Assembly (NCBI GenBank): GCA_015486215.1
Contig: WFSA01000220.1
Coordinates: forward strand, 1-38,736
Direction: 5' to 3'
DNA length: 38,736 nt
From: Anaerolineae bacterium
Lineage (GTDB): Bacteria > Chloroflexota > Anaerolineae > Promineifilales > Promineifilaceae
Program-made: the position numbers and the translations under genes
Notes under the pieces: generated by a model
The model's database searches: none
Told to the model about the DNA's origin: nothing
What the model saw: only the letters and a program-made list of their open reading frames with translations
Shown here: piece after piece, positions 4,461 to 35,177 of the stretch
Layout: each line of letters begins with the position of its first letter
Position numbering within the stretch: the stretch's first letter is position 1

Positions 4461-4743
4461 GGCATGTTACCTCCATTGTGATTGCTTCTTATTTAATTTA
4501 TTTCCTTGTGTTTGAAGACGAAGAATCATACCAAATTTTCAATGATAAGCGAATAATCTTCGGAGATAAACGGGGGCGGTTGTATACTCAAAAATTGGAC
4601 ACTGATTGCACAGATGAACATAGATTGTCGGGATAAATGCGGATAGATTAAAAGAAACTTGCGCTCATCCTGATAACCGTGAAAATTTGCGCTCTATTAA
4701 ACTGTAAGGATGCTTGGGAACGAGAATTTAATAACTTATGGAA

Positions 4744-4865
4744 GTATCTTTTCAATATTTCGGGGTGATTATAACAGATGAAGAAAGGAACAGATTGCGT
4801 TAGTCGAGAAAACCTGTTTTTTTCTAATCTGTTGTACTCTTGCCCCCAGATTTTTGAGAGGATAC
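4744..4865. mobile_element. MITE family B, copy B1
   Basis: A 122-bp element running from GTATCTTTTCAATATT to a GAGAGGATAC end, with the inner arms ('TAACAGAT', 'AATCTGTTGTA') also inverted. It is flanked by TTATGGAA and TTGTGGAA, a 7/8 match to an 8-bp target duplication. Related copies lie at 10736-10878, 21976-22098 and 34940-35062. No coding capacity. Confidence 0.8.
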
Positions 4866-4920
4866 TTGTGGAACTTCAAATTGTCATTCCTTAGGGAAAA
4901 CTCGTAAATAACTGTGGCCA

Positions 4921-4953
4921 AGGTGACAGGCACTTGCCAAGTGCCTGTCACCT
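4921..4953. repeat. 33-bp perfect palindrome
   Basis: The arm AGGTGACAGGCACTTG, one central C and its exact reverse complement form a perfect 33-bp palindrome, able to form a cruciform or a 16-bp hairpin. It sits between MITE B1 and the ABC permease relic, with no gene start nearby. It could be a REP-like dispersed sequence, but no second copy lies in the window. Confidence 0.75.
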
Positions 4954-4983
4954 GAAAGTCCAAAGTTAAAAACGAACCATCCC

Positions 4984-5298
4984 TTAGATGTTGATCGTGC
5001 TTCCTGATTCGTAGCGGCGCAGGCCGATGTAGAAAACGGCCGTTGCTATCCTCCCCCACATCAAAAATGCGACTCCCCATAAAGCGAGCAGCAGCATCCT
5101 ATTCCCCGTTTTCGTAATTTGAACAGGAATCGCGGTATCTTCTCAATAAATCGTGGACAAGACTTGACAAATTTCATCAGCACTTTATTTTACACGAGTA
5201 CCATTAGGAAAATTTGTCAAGTCTCCCCAGAATACTGAGAAGATACGAATCGCGCCTATGGAAAATGCGGGGATCAACGTATGAAGGAGGAACGGCCG
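4984..5298 (-). pseudogene. Relic of ABC-2 type permease C-terminus, split by MITE A1
   Basis: Removing the 112-bp MITE A1 (5135-5246) and one copy of its 8-bp duplication joins an open minus-strand frame of about 64 codons ending at 4984-4986. It reads '..RPFLLHTLIPAFSIGAIPVQITK..' and then '..WGRIATAVFYIGLRRYESG..'. A hydrophobic segment followed by a 'GLRRYESG' tail is how many ABC-2 family permeases end. The frame is closed by a stop just upstream of 5298, so only the C-terminus survives. The MITE insertion and the open frame are seen directly. The family assignment is from recall of the tail motif and is tentative. Confidence 0.45.
5135..5246 (-). mobile_element. MITE family A, copy A1 with 8-bp TSD
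   Basis: A 112-bp element bounded by GTATCTTCTCAATA and its inverse, with long internal complementarity (GACTTGACAAATTT in both arms). It is flanked by perfect 8-bp duplications GAATCGCG at 5127-5134 and 5247-5254. It lies in the reverse orientation relative to copies A2, A3 and A5. It interrupts an ABC-2 permease relic. On the plus strand it contains a TTGACA (5164-5169), 16 nt, TATTTT (5186-5191) pair pointing at the tetR-type gene. Confidence 0.92.
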
Positions 5299-6149: not shown

Positions 6150-6224
6150 ATGAACTATAAACAGGTACTTATCACAGAATTCGGCAACCCAGACGTATCT
6201 TCTCAGTATTCTGGGGAGACTTGA
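6150..6224 (+). pseudogene. Original 5' end of the oxidoreductase gene, cut by MITE A2
   Basis: ATG 6150 follows a good GGAG site (6141-6144) and begins MNYKQVLITEFGNP, the normal beginning of this enzyme family. After codon 15 the frame enters MITE A2 and ends at TGA 6222-6224 inside the element. The codons after the element continue with 'PDVMKVVEKE', so the uninterrupted gene would have read ...FGNPDVMKVV.... The insertion plus duplication is 120 bp, which keeps the frame but brings in the stop. Confidence 0.85.
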
Positions 6225-6306
6225 CAAATTTTCCTAATGATACGCGTGTAAAATAAAGTGCTGATGAAATTTGTCAACTCTTGTCCACGATTTATTGAGA
6301 AGATAC
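6195..6306 (+). mobile_element. MITE family A, copy A2, inside a coding sequence
   Basis: A full-length 112-bp copy with intact GTATCTTCTCA ends. The flanks ACCCAGAC and GCCCAGAT are an 8-bp duplication with one change in each copy; the core CCCAGA is exact. It has inserted at codon 15 of the MDR oxidoreductase gene. It provides a GTG (6258) and an ATG (6264) in frame with the rest of the gene. Confidence 0.92.
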
Positions 6307-10051: not shown

Positions 10052-10688
10052 TTTGGCAAAAGAAATGGAAGAAACACAGTATTATTATCCTAATAAAATG
10101 GGGCGCATTGTATTGACGGCTCTAGAACAGATTACGGGGCGGCATGGAGTTAATGCAGTTCTTAATTTGGCTAATCTGGAACATCTTGTCAATAATTATC
10201 CGCCGAATAATCTGCGGCGAGGCTTTTCTTTTGATGAATTTGGAGCCATTCAGCAGGTTCTGGAAGAAATGTATGGGATTCGCGGCGGGCGGGGCCTGGC
10301 GTTACGTTCAGGTCGTGAGACGTGGACATATGCGCTTAAAGAGTTCGCTCCAGTTCTTGGCATTACTGATTTGGCTGTGCGGATGTTGCCATTGGGAATG
10401 AAGCTGAAAATTGGTTTGGATGTATTTGCGGAAACATTCAATAAATTTAGCGATCAAAAAGTGCGTTTATCTGAGGATGAACGTGGCTATTTGTGGATTA
10501 TTGAGCGTTGCCCTGTTTGTTGGGGACGCACGTCAGAAGAGCCTTGTTGTCATTTGGCAGTGGGACTATTGGAAGAATCACTTACTTGGGTGAGCCGTGG
10601 GCGCCAATTTGATGTAAAAGAGGTATCTTGTATTGCTACTGGTGATGAGAATTGCACTATTGTCATATCAAAGAAACCAATAACGTAG
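10029..10688 (+). CDS. V4R domain (4-vinyl reductase-type) small-molecule sensor
   Basis: A 219-residue cytosolic protein. The C-terminal half (about 130-215) is a V4R domain with the conserved Cys pattern 'RCPVCWGRTSEEPCCH', then 'EVSCIATGDENCTIVI'. V4R domains bind small hydrophobic ligands and sometimes metals, and occur in bacteriochlorophyll BchJ, XylR-type activators and archaeal regulators. The N-terminal ~120 residues are helical, starting 'KMGRIVLTALEQITGRHGVNAVL'. The gene overlaps the hydrolase by 23 bp, so one may produce or remove the ligand of the other (inference). No DNA-binding or catalytic domain is attached. Confidence 0.85.
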   Translation: MTMVQVIDLAKEMEETQYYYPNKMGRIVLTALEQITGRHGVNAVLNLANLEHLVNNYPPNNLRRGFSFDEFGAIQQVLEEMYGIRGGRGLALRSGRETWTYALKEFAPVLGITDLAVRMLPLGMKLKIGLDVFAETFNKFSDQKVRLSEDERGYLWIIERCPVCWGRTSEEPCCHLAVGLLEESLTWVSRGRQFDVKEVSCIATGDENCTIVISKKPIT

Positions 10689-10735
10689 GCATTTGGACTG
10701 GCTTCCGCTTAAACTTGTTAAATGTAAGGAATGAG

Positions 10736-10878
10736 GTGGCTTCTCAATATTTCGGGGTGACTACAACGGACGAAAGAAATAAACGGATGGTGTAGCCGAG
10801 AAAATATCCGTTCATTTTCATAATCCGTTGTAGTCACAGTAAAAACAAAATAATTTCCCCGCTTTTTTGAGAAGATAT
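10736..10878. mobile_element. MITE family B, copy B2 with perfect 8-bp TSD
   Basis: A 143-bp B-type element (GTGGCTTCTCAATATTTCGG ... TTTTTTGAGAAGATAT) with a variant left end. Perfect 8-bp duplications GGAATGAG flank it (10728-10735, 10879-10886). It is longer than B1 because of an expanded middle. Inserted in repeat C1. Confidence 0.88.
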
Positions 10879-10894
10879 GGAATGAGGATTAAAT

Positions 10895-11085
10895 GACTCC
10901 AGTGAAAAAAGGTCAATTTCGGAAAATTGGTGGTTATACACGCCTTTTTTTGAAGGTTTTGGCGCATAAAGCATAATTTTTTTGTACACCTCATTGTGGC
11001 GCATTTATGCACGATACAGGCTTCGATCACTTGGTGTTGTGTGATTTTTAGCAACTCTCCAAAATGGAGTAAATTCAGTGGAGTC
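10895..11085. mobile_element. Element D, 191 bp, with 7-bp TSD and known empty site
   Basis: Inverted ends GACTCCAGTGAA / GACTCCACTGAA. Flanked by ATTAAAT on both sides (10888-10894 and 11086-11092). The related repeat at 17499 reads 'GGATTAAATAAAACC' without the insert, which is the empty site. No ORF of note. Confidence 0.88.
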
Positions 11086-11264
11086 ATTAAATAAAACCCG
11101 AAACTTCCATCTATCATTCCTCCATCTTCATGAGAGCAGGCTCTGCGAATGCAGGAATTCACAGTCTGAAAAATCATAGATTCCCGCCTAAAAGAGTTTA
11201 CCCTCACGAAGATGAGGGCGGGAATGACAACTTTGGTAGTTAAATAAATCCTCGTTCCTAAGTT

Positions 11265-11312: not shown

Positions 11313-11352
11313 GGCTTATTTACTGTGCGTCTTTGATAAATTGTGTGGTGAG

Positions 11353-11464
11353 GTATCTTCTCAGTATTCTGGGGAGACTTGACAAATTTTCCTAATGATA
11401 CTCGTGTAAAATAAAGTGCTGATGAAATTTGTCAAGCCTTGTCCACGATTTACTGAGGAGATAC
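11353..11464 (+). mobile_element. MITE family A, copy A3
   Basis: A full 112-bp copy, same orientation as A2, with slightly decayed right end (CTGAGGAGATAC). The flanks GTGGTGAG and TGGTTGAG resemble each other but are not a clean duplication. Located 165 bp upstream of the beta-helix protein gene. Confidence 0.85.
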
Positions 11465-11629: not shown

Positions 11630-12913
11630 ATGCGCCGTGTAATTCTTACAGAAAAAAGCCATATTGCTCCGTTTAATCAACCAGCTAGAGATTTGAGGGT
11701 TCAGAATAAACCGCTCTGGTTATGGCAGCGAGATTTGCTGTCACGATATGCGTCTGAAGAGCGAGAGTATGAAGATTGGCAGATGGCGTATGAGATGGAG
11801 AGCGAAGAAGTTGAGACGCTTGTTCATCGGGATAATCTTTTTTTTAATGCTGCGTTGATTGATGAGTTTGTTGAGTTGGCAAAAGCGGGTAAACGGCCGG
11901 TACGGTTGGCTTTTCGACAGGATGATTTGTCTATTGCTACGCATGTTGTTCCATTGACGCATTCATTTTTTCAGCAGGGGGAGTTGTTACTGGCTGATAT
12001 GTGGTATCTCCCTCGTGGTATTTCGCAGAGTGTTGAAGTTGAGCCATTGATTATAGATACTGAGCCAACTGAGGTTGGCTATTATCATGTTCCTCCTTAT
12101 ATGGCTACTGAGGTGGGAGATTTAGTTTATCAATTACCCAAAAAATCTTTTGTCCTTATTGAAAATTGGGTACATTTATTTATTGCTGATATTTTGTTTG
12201 GTGTTTTTTCTAATGGTGTTTTTCGGCAAGAGCGTATTGATCAGGAGTGGTCATATAAGTTAAAATTATTGTGGCGTTCCATTCTTGAGCAGAAGCAGAC
12301 ACGTTCTAATAGCGAGATGATAGAAATTGGAAAAAATGTTGTTATTGACCCATCGGCAACTGTGTTGGGTCCGACGATAATTGGAGATAATGTAGAGATT
12401 GGGGCGGGGGTGGTTATTGACAATTGTATTATTGGTAATAGTGTTACTGTTTCGCAAGGATGCCAGTTAATGTTGAGCGTTGTTAGTGATGGTTGTTTTC
12501 TACCATTTAGAACATCTTTGTTTATGACAACATTGATGGAAAATACGATGGTTGCTCAAAATACTTGTTTGCAATTGTGTGTTATTGGTCGTGATACGTT
12601 TATTGGCGCGGGGACGACGTTTACTGATTTTAATGTTTTGTCTGGTCCGTTGAAAACATCAACAAGGGATGGGGTTTTAGAAGAGACAAATTTATTGATT
12701 TTGGGCGGCTGTGTGGGGCATCATTGTCGGTTAAGTGCTGGGGTTATTGTTTATCCAGCACGAACGGTTGAGTCTGATGTGGTGATTTTGGCTTCGGATG
12801 ATCGACATATTTTTACTAAGAATGTCGCTTATGAGGAGAGTAATTTTTACTCATATGAGCATAAGTATGAGTATATGCGTCAATATCCGCGTGAAGATGA
12901 GGGTAATTTTTGA
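11630..12913 (+). CDS. Left-handed beta-helix (hexapeptide repeat) protein, GlmU-like architecture
   Basis: A 427-residue protein. Residues ~231-395 carry hexapeptide repeats ('IEIGKNVVIDPSATVLGPTIIGDNVEIGAGVVID' in two halves, 'VIGRDTFIGAGTTFTD', 'LLILGGCVGHHCRLSAGVIV'), forming the left-handed beta helix of acyl/nucleotidyl transferases. The N-terminal 225 residues have no sugar-nucleotide motif that I recognise but contain 'VHRDNLFFNAALIDEFVELA' and 'GKRPVRLAF'. Such two-part proteins resemble GlmU-type sugar-1-phosphate enzymes whose nucleotidyl part has diverged. The active-site His of acyltransferases cannot be assigned. The coding strand is rich in T at third positions, unlike the GC-richer genes beyond 22 kb. 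The start has only a weak AGGA upstream. Confidence 0.85.
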   Translation: MRRVILTEKSHIAPFNQPARDLRVQNKPLWLWQRDLLSRYASEEREYEDWQMAYEMESEEVETLVHRDNLFFNAALIDEFVELAKAGKRPVRLAFRQDDLSIATHVVPLTHSFFQQGELLLADMWYLPRGISQSVEVEPLIIDTEPTEVGYYHVPPYMATEVGDLVYQLPKKSFVLIENWVHLFIADILFGVFSNGVFRQERIDQEWSYKLKLLWRSILEQKQTRSNSEMIEIGKNVVIDPSATVLGPTIIGDNVEIGAGVVIDNCIIGNSVTVSQGCQLMLSVVSDGCFLPFRTSLFMTTLMENTMVAQNTCLQLCVIGRDTFIGAGTTFTDFNVLSGPLKTSTRDGVLEETNLLILGGCVGHHCRLSAGVIVYPARTVESDVVILASDDRHIFTKNVAYEESNFYSYEHKYEYMRQYPREDEGNF

Positions 12914-17498: not shown

Positions 17499-17729
17499 AG
17501 GAATGAGGATTAAATAAAACCAGAAACTTCCATCTGTCATTCCCGTGAAGACTTGATAAATTTTCCTAATGATACTCGTGTAAAATAAAGTGCTGATGAA
17601 ATTTGTCAAGTCTTGTCCACGATTTATTGAGAAGATACATTTAAATTTAGAAATGGCCTAAAAGAGTTTACCCTCACGAAGGTGGGGGCGGGAATGACAA
17701 CTTTGGTAGTTAAATAAGCCCTCGTTCCT
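17499..17729. repeat. Repeat family C copy C2, mosaic with A and G fragments
   Basis: Starts AGGAATGAGGATTAAAT and ends CTCGTTCCT like C1. Its centre has been replaced. At GAAGACTTGA it passes into a 5'-truncated MITE A (17549-17638). That joins the right end of repeat G (ATTTAAATTTAGAAATGGCC), which then returns to C at CCTAAAAGAG. The joints fall in short shared words, suggesting recombination or gap repair between repeats. Confidence 0.7.
17549..17638 (+). repeat. MITE family A fragment A4 (left end missing)
   Basis: Matches A2 from AGACTTGA to the intact right end TTGAGAAGATAC; the left ~22 bp are absent. Embedded in C2. Confidence 0.8.
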
Positions 17730-21549: not shown

Positions 21550-21621
21550 TAGCTTACTCCTTTGGGTAACAATAATGGATGCAAGAACTAAACCGCTTGA
21601 TTTTAGCTCTATGCTCTGTTG

Positions 21622-21733
21622 GTATCTTCTCAGTATTCTGGGAAGACTTGACAAATTTTCCTAATGATACTCGTGTAAAATAAAGTGCTGATAAAATTTG
21701 TCAAGTCTTGTCCACGATTTATTGAGAAGATAC
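21622..21733 (+). mobile_element. MITE family A, copy A5 with perfect 8-bp TSD
   Basis: A full-length 112-bp copy. Flanked by perfect CTCTGTTG duplications (21614-21621 and 21734-21741). It lies 72 bp upstream of the TPR start. On the minus strand it has TTGACA (21704-21699), 16 nt, TATTTT (21682-21677) facing the TPR gene. Confidence 0.93.
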
Positions 21734-21932
21734 CTCTGTTGCTACTATGATAAATGAAAATGATTACCCTTGATTTCTTAGAAGATAAATAAACCTACGA
21801 ATTCTACATAACTATAATTTGCCCATTATAACATACCATAACGAGAGATTATAATTAGAAATGGGGGAAACGGTAGCAGACTGGATGAATGACGGGAAAC
21901 GGCCGGTTTTCCGTTGCCAAGTAACAATTGCC

Positions 21933-22183
21933 GTAACTACTCAGCCTATCAATTATTTCACCACAAAGAAGCAAGGTATCTTCTCAATAAAGTGGGGACA
22001 TGAGTGCAGCTGATTTGGAAAAGAACAGATTGACTCGACTGACGCAATTTGCTCCTTTCTTAATTTGTTGTACTCACCCCGAAATATTGAGATGTTACGA
22101 AGCAAAGATCACAGAGAAAATCTTAAAAAACTTTATGTTCTTCGTGTCTTTGTGGTTAATTTGGACAAGGGCTGAGTAGTTAC
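21933..22183. mobile_element. Element E, copy E1 (IS66-like ends), carrying MITE B3
   Basis: Inverted ends GTAACTACTCAGCC. Perfect 8-bp duplications CAATTGCC (21925-21932, 22184-22191). About 120 bp when B3 is removed. Ends starting GTAA and 8-bp duplications are features of IS66-family elements (known), so E may be mobilised by an IS66-type transposase (inference). Other E ends: 35181-35224 and about 30260-30273. Confidence 0.88.
21976..22098. mobile_element. MITE family B, copy B3, nested in element E1
   Basis: 123 bp, from GTATCTTCTCAATA to a decayed end TTGAGATGTTAC. The flanks GAAGCAAG / GAAGCAAA match at 7 of 8 positions. It inserted into E1 after E1 had arrived. Confidence 0.87.
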
Positions 22184-34925: not shown

Positions 34926-34939
34926 ATGGGACTTTTTAG

Positions 34940-35062
34940 ATAACTTCTTAATATTTCGAGGTGAGTACAACAAATTAAGAAAGGAACAAATTGCGTCAGT
35001 CGAGTCAATCTGTTCTTTTCCAAATCTACTGTACTCATGTCCCCAATTTTTTGAGAAGATAC
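34940..35062. mobile_element. MITE family B, copy B4
   Basis: 123 bp, left end decayed (ATAACTTCTTAATATT), right end intact (TTTTTTGAGAAGATAC). No clean target duplication, since another element follows after 4 bp. Confidence 0.8.
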
Positions 35063-35066
35063 CAAA

Positions 35067-35177
35067 GTATCTTCTCAAAAAATTGGAGACATGACTTGAA
35101 AATTTCATCAGCACTTTGTTTTACACGAGTATCATTAGGAAAATTTGTCAAGTCTCCCCAGAATACTGAGAAGATAC
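35067..35177 (-). mobile_element. Hybrid MITE A6 (B-type left end, A-type body)
   Basis: The first ~30 bp (GTATCTTCTCAAAAAATTGG, then AGACATGA) match the inverted right end of family B. From ACTTGA on it is an inverted family A copy with an intact right end. This is a recombinant between the two families. Confidence 0.8.

Follow-up and report, generated by a model that had tools for sequence, protein, structure and literature searches.

The window, by which we mean the whole stretch of DNA analysed (38,736 nucleotides), is contig C220 of an Anaerolineae genome, G000, assembled to 4.13 Mb in 341 contigs and 96% complete. The best matches of its MoaA, in a comparison from which records of this genome may have been left out, are from Anaerolineae and other Chloroflexota, in keeping with a Chloroflexota source. 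Names such as C220, C122 and C192 refer throughout to contigs of this genome; C1 and C2 are copies of a repeat, C. Between a V4R-domain gene that ends at 10688 and a hexapeptide-domain gene that starts at 11630 lies a gap holding three nested elements. The outermost is C1, a MITE-like repeat on the forward strand at 10728-11258 that measures 182 bp once its two guests, B2 and D, and their duplications have been subtracted. It is flanked by a 3-bp TAA on the left (10725-10727) and by an identical TAA, read directly, on the right (11259-11261). B2, 143 bp on the same strand at 10736-10878, has the ends GTGGCTTCTCA and ATATCTTCTCA and is bracketed by two copies of the 8-bp GGAATGAG, at 10728-10735 and 10879-10886, the left one coinciding with the opening 8 bp of C1. 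Since B targeted the extreme terminus of C, its insertion re-formed an intact C end internally, at 10879. D, 191 bp long, non-coding and likewise on the forward strand, occupies 10895-11085 between direct 7-bp repeats, ATTAAAT, at 10888-10894 and 11086-11092. Its inverted ends, GACTCCAGTGAA at 10895-10906 and GACTCCACTGAA at 11074-11085 (read on the other strand), are 12 bp long in this copy and match at 11 of the 12 positions. Exact direct repeats, then, surround all three elements. The original prediction for this DNA had C1 interrupted by both B2 and D, with just these 8-bp and 7-bp duplications, and so it proved; the limits it gave for C1, 10727 and 11259, had to be drawn in to those above, with the TAA repeats outside them.

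The surroundings are hardly less crowded. Element A, with B-like ends (GTATCTTCTCA), adjoins C1 on the forward strand at 11353-11464. Farther along is C2 (17500-17728, forward strand, flanked by TTA), which is an empty site at the point where D entered C1: from 17500 it reads GGAATGAGGATTAAATAAAACC, unbroken. That continuity had been correctly called, with a start at 17499, but C2 is not a clean copy, its original middle having been exchanged for a truncated A repeat (about 17549-17638) and a piece of another repeat. Repeats of the A/B type abound in the 38.7-kb window, some of them adjacent to one another (4741-5247, 6192-6306, 11350-11464, 17524-17638, 21619-22097 and 34937-35177). The window has no match in Rfam at gathering thresholds.

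C1, B2 and D belong to three unrelated families of short, non-coding elements with inverted ends, that is, MITEs. The sequence shows that C inserted between the two genes and duplicated TAA. Two later arrivals then entered C: a B element, which took the opening 8 bp of C as its target and duplicated GGAATGAG, and a D element, whose target was the ATTAAAT lying 16 bp into C and which duplicated those 7 bp. Each of the three arrived as a unit with defined ends. That C is older than both B and D, as originally proposed, follows from the direct repeats of B and D, which consist of C sequence, and for D also from the many C copies that are continuous where D entered.

Empty sites and the C family

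The continuity of C was followed through the whole of G000 with a C-end pattern, GAATGAGGATTAAATAAAACC, at up to three mismatches and with a reversed control. The pattern has 110 matches and the control none. We scored as empty only those ends with no mismatch or one, at least 36 exact and 44 with a single mismatch, because the looser matches include the filled window site itself, which fits the pattern at three mismatches since D's own end permits it. At least 80 C ends in the genome thus read through the D point. The original prediction had called for a search for such sites, and would have been refuted had D proved to be present in every C copy; it is absent from all of these, so that this refutation fails.

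Could D nonetheless be native to C, the copies that lack it having arisen by deletion between two ATTAAAT repeats? The argument for this is one of reasoning, in that a single ATTAAAT would likewise remain if the DNA between two direct repeats were precisely deleted. Set against it are the 80 or more C ends without D, the occurrence of D outside C with different 7-bp repeats, and a D copy in contig C122 that sits in C reversed and belongs to another subfamily. We regard the deletion account as having next to no chance of being right. The simpler notion that D is a fixed part of C is refuted by the D copies outside C with duplications of their own, together with the empty ends.

C has a target preference of its own. 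Identical 3-mers flank 24 of the 38 distinct C copies that we extracted, and in 23 of those 24 the 3-mer is TTA or TAA. A 3-bp TNA target repeat is a feature of IS5-type MITEs; C has this feature and is a candidate member of that type.

D as a mobile element

D matches ten places in G000, nine full-length copies and one fragment, the window copy included. The further copies that the original prediction had asked for therefore number eight at full length. A search based on the ends alone added an interrupted D in C88, a D cut by the contig end in C186 and, in C261, a D-like element with another interior. D is 191-192 bp long and contains no gene; its longest stop-free run is 63 codons in the window and 39 in C129.

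Eleven D-type copies have both ends, a count that excludes the fragment in C332 and the one-ended copy in C186, and eight of them lie between exact 7-bp direct repeats: those of C220, C129, C122, C323 and C88, two in C192, and the D-like element of C261. The remaining three, in C283, C35 and C320, have no matching 7-bp repeat, which counts against our explanation. We did not score C186 and C323 as separate insertions: each has its D at the end of the contig, and the two sequences are identical but for 1 of 151 bases. The target is ATTAAAT in both C220 and C122, TTATGTA in C129, TTAACAT in C192 (for its two copies), TTAAATT in C323, CTATAAT in C88 and TATTTAT in C261. Over these seven 7-mers A and T make up 46 of 49 bases, for which the chance is near 2e-6 even at 65% A/T.

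D thus has terminal inverted repeats, a short length without a gene, a target-site duplication and a presence at several unrelated sites, which are the features of a MITE. The original prediction that D moved as a unit is borne out by the copies at unrelated sites with 7-bp repeats of their own, and again by the D of another subfamily that sits, reversed, at the same spot in a second copy of C. Its description of the ends as the 7 bp GACTCCA was too short; they extend over 12 bp, GACTCCASTGAA.

D might instead be a hairpin repeat that spread without transposition, in the manner of a REP-like element or by recombination. It is short and non-coding, after all, and is far from the only dispersed or inverted repeat in the window, where there are many, but such a repeat sits badly with exact 7-bp duplications around eight of the 11 two-ended copies, or with ends that D has in common with transposase-bearing elements (below). 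We rate this as very improbable and continue with D as a transposed element.

D has no match in 51 other genomes of the family, and a scan for CCACTGAATTTACYCCATTTYGG over a collection of genome contigs, from which the window's own genome may have been left out, found nothing; the empty scan means only that close D copies are not widespread.

One site hit twice

In C122, D lies in another copy of C at the same ATTAAAT, in the orientation opposite to that of the window. This D is 97% identical to the D copies of C129 and C283 and 81% identical to the D of the window. Being reversed, and so much closer to those two copies than to the window's, it must count as an independent insertion, so that D entered the ATTAAAT site of C at least twice. 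This second filled site is our strongest evidence. If D landed at random among 7-mers made up entirely of A and T, the chance of two hits in one such site would be about 4e-5, an estimate that takes the rate of all-A/T 7-mers from the window and the number of C sites as 110. A stronger liking of D for words resembling ATTAAAT would make the double hit unremarkable.

A second doubling is found in C192 (254-644), where two tandem D copies of different subfamilies, 75% alike, stand among three TTAACAT. The later D used a target which the earlier D had duplicated.

B elements within C

B lies inside C at three of 30 B loci, those of the window, C84 and C339, and at a fourth the right flank resembles C. 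C44 is a further case of B in C; it comes from the 40 scored B matches and has no locus of its own. The variant CACAGT at positions 100-105 of B occurs in the copies of the window, C84, C44 and C5:20318 and is absent from the other 27 of 31. Its carriers are exactly the four of 31 whose right flank starts (G)GAATGAGGATTA, a coincidence with a chance of about 3e-5.

Such a tight association raises the prospect that B entered a C end once, and that the outer ends of C then carried the B-in-C composite to several places. The confinement of CACAGT to four B copies at C-like starts favours this, as do the TAA flanks of the outer pair in both the window and C44. Other details speak for separate insertions. 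The 8-bp repeat in C44 is shifted by one base, to GAATGAGG, on both sides, as a second insertion would leave it; internal deletions in C differ between C84 and C44; and further A/B elements are found at different places in C ends, flanked by different 8-bp repeats. We give the composite an appreciable chance, though one that falls short of even.

In the scanned loci as a whole we found 70 A/B-type pairs whose flanking 8-bp repeats agree at 7 or all 8 positions, a set biased to loci chosen for C or B and including a few overlapping pairs, and some of these too lie in C ends elsewhere. The ends of C have been landing sites more than once, for D and for A/B elements.

Relatives of D and a candidate transposase

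What, then, moved D? The end of D alone, GASTCCACTGAAAAAAGG, was searched in 56 genomes of the order at up to one mismatch, again with a reversed control. It was found in 13 of the 56; the reversed 18-bp control was found in none. Among the genomes with matches, G042 had 15 and G043 had 94. Of ten loci that we read in these two, nine have exact 6-bp repeats, eight of them on elements of 100-101 bp and one on a 232-bp pair, and one has no repeat. A repeat of 6 bp, not 7, on elements of about 101 bp that have the D end counts against our explanation. G025 has a 101-bp element with a 7-bp repeat, ATTTATT. Locus L186 of G027 showed no repeat, and locus L193 of G008 is cut by the contig end.

In three genomes, G025, G052 and G055, the end of D, GACTCCACTGAAAAAAGG, adjoins an IS1182-like transposase gene, directly before its reading frame. 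The whole gene is bounded by similar ends in G052 (1845 bp) and in G055 (2006 bp). Searching with the G052 protein gave matches in ten of the 56 genomes, and through the protein we found one more complete gene, in G020; it is 42% identical, and the distance between its related ends is 1866 bp. DUF772 and DDE_Tnp_1_6 domains score above cut-off in G052 and G055. The G052 protein has PF13751 and PF05598 above their cut-offs and reaches 143.5 bits against NF033551 (IS1182), whose cut-off is 270. The two NF033551 scores, 143.5 and 104 bits, both fall below the curated IS1182 score, yet this is the best family in the library.

The likeness between D and these elements has clear limits. The ends common to D and the autonomous elements of G052, G055 and G020 extend over about 18 bp, and beyond those terminal bases the likeness ceases, which tells against our explanation. 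So do two poor matches among the ends of the IS elements, GACCCTCCCGAAAAAAGG in G020 and GACTCTTCTGAAAGAAC in G055. A clean 7-bp repeat is missing from all three complete elements: in G055 five of the seven bases agree, and in G052 and G020 there is no match. Nor do the target repeats, 7 bp for D and 6 bp for its short relatives, agree with the 4 bp of two published IS1182 cases.

All this leaves room for a cognate transposase of some other family, the link to IS1182-like genes being a short end that arose twice. With a shared part of only about 18 bp, such a coincidence is conceivable, and G043 has its 94 end matches without an IS1182-like protein having been found there. It would, however, have to accommodate a reversed pattern that occurs in none of the 56 genomes, and ends of this kind around three IS1182-like genes, two of which are 42% and 60% identical to the third (best matches). 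We think a different family unlikely. As a side observation, the D-type ends of G043, many as they are, belong in the loci read mostly to elements of about 101 bp, and it was the search with the IS1182-like protein that had no match in that genome.

G000 has no match to the G052 transposase protein or to PF13751, for which the control, Methanosarcina acetivorans, was positive; repeats of this sort can drop out of an assembly in 341 contigs. With no such transposase found in the assembly, D is probably an orphan now, or else its gene lies in an unassembled repeat.

The mechanism we propose is that D would have moved, by cut-and-paste or by copying, through the action in trans of a transposase from an IS1182-like element with the same 18-bp end as D, with a staggered cut that would be 7 bp long and fall in AT-rich DNA. 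D is thus most likely a MITE that depended for its movement on an IS1182-like element acting in trans and now lost or unassembled. As a whole, three nested MITE families of which D was moved by an IS1182-like transposase is very probably the right account of the locus.

Relation to known systems

MITEs derived from IS1182 have a precedent in Methanosarcina acetivorans, where the passages on ISMac2-related elements in Kamoun et al. (2013, PMC3852290) describe MITEs of 160 and 169 bp with direct repeats of 4 and 0 bp. As described there they resemble D in being short, non-coding and present in many copies, and in sharing little with the IS1182 element beyond the terminal inverted repeats. They differ from D in their target repeats, which are 7 bp in D and 6 bp in the short elements of G042 and G043, and in that the partner gene of D was not found in G000. 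ISPse1 of the IS1182 family is given in the relevant passage of PMC3281130 as 1653 bp long with 16/16 ends and a 4-bp repeat. Compared with that description, the candidate partner of D is likewise a one-gene element of similar size, with DUF772 and DDE_Tnp_1_6 domains and NF033551 as its best match; unlike the IS1182 family, it scores 143.5 or 104 bits against a cut-off of 270 and has a different target repeat. The 7- and 6-bp repeats, together with the low family score, make it plausible that the partner represents a distinct group.

That one repeat family should receive the insertions of a different mobile element also has its parallel, in the REP repeats that are targets of IS elements (Tobes and Pareja 2006, PMC1525189). 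Here, unlike in that account, both the target and the inserting element are MITEs. None of the papers listed by our literature search dealt with MITEs of these bacteria, and in the excerpted text of a prokaryotic MITE review (PMC10969869) the words 'nested', 'IS1182' and 'Chloroflex' do not occur.

Nested MITEs are already known, and the case is well documented but ordinary. What is new is the family, the length of its target repeat (6-7 bp, against 4 bp in two IS1182 cases) and the repeated use of C ends as landing sites. For a set of prokaryotic MITEs it offers a full record, with filled and empty sites, a double hit in opposite orientations and two subfamilies on one target, and it allowed a candidate transposase to be traced in related genomes from ends alone. 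The repeated use of C ends also makes testable the idea of MITEs as landing sites that divert later insertions from genes. One might go further and suppose, all at once, that D, together with the related elements of G025, G042 and G043, forms an IS1182-related group outside the curated family with a 6-7-bp cut in AT-rich DNA, that the MITEs of G000 outlived their transposase, and that abundant C ends serve as landing pads that shield genes; we put this combination forward tentatively, and think it rather doubtful that every part of it will hold.

Nesting itself is so common that a published detection pipeline separates it; what sets the present case apart is that two D subfamilies entered one and the same site, each in its own orientation. 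Nesting is not a one-way affair in G000. At about 7719-8012 of C88, a D with CTATAAT repeats encloses an A element as well as a portion of another repeat, and in C323 D lies inside that same kind of repeat, so these families nest in both directions.
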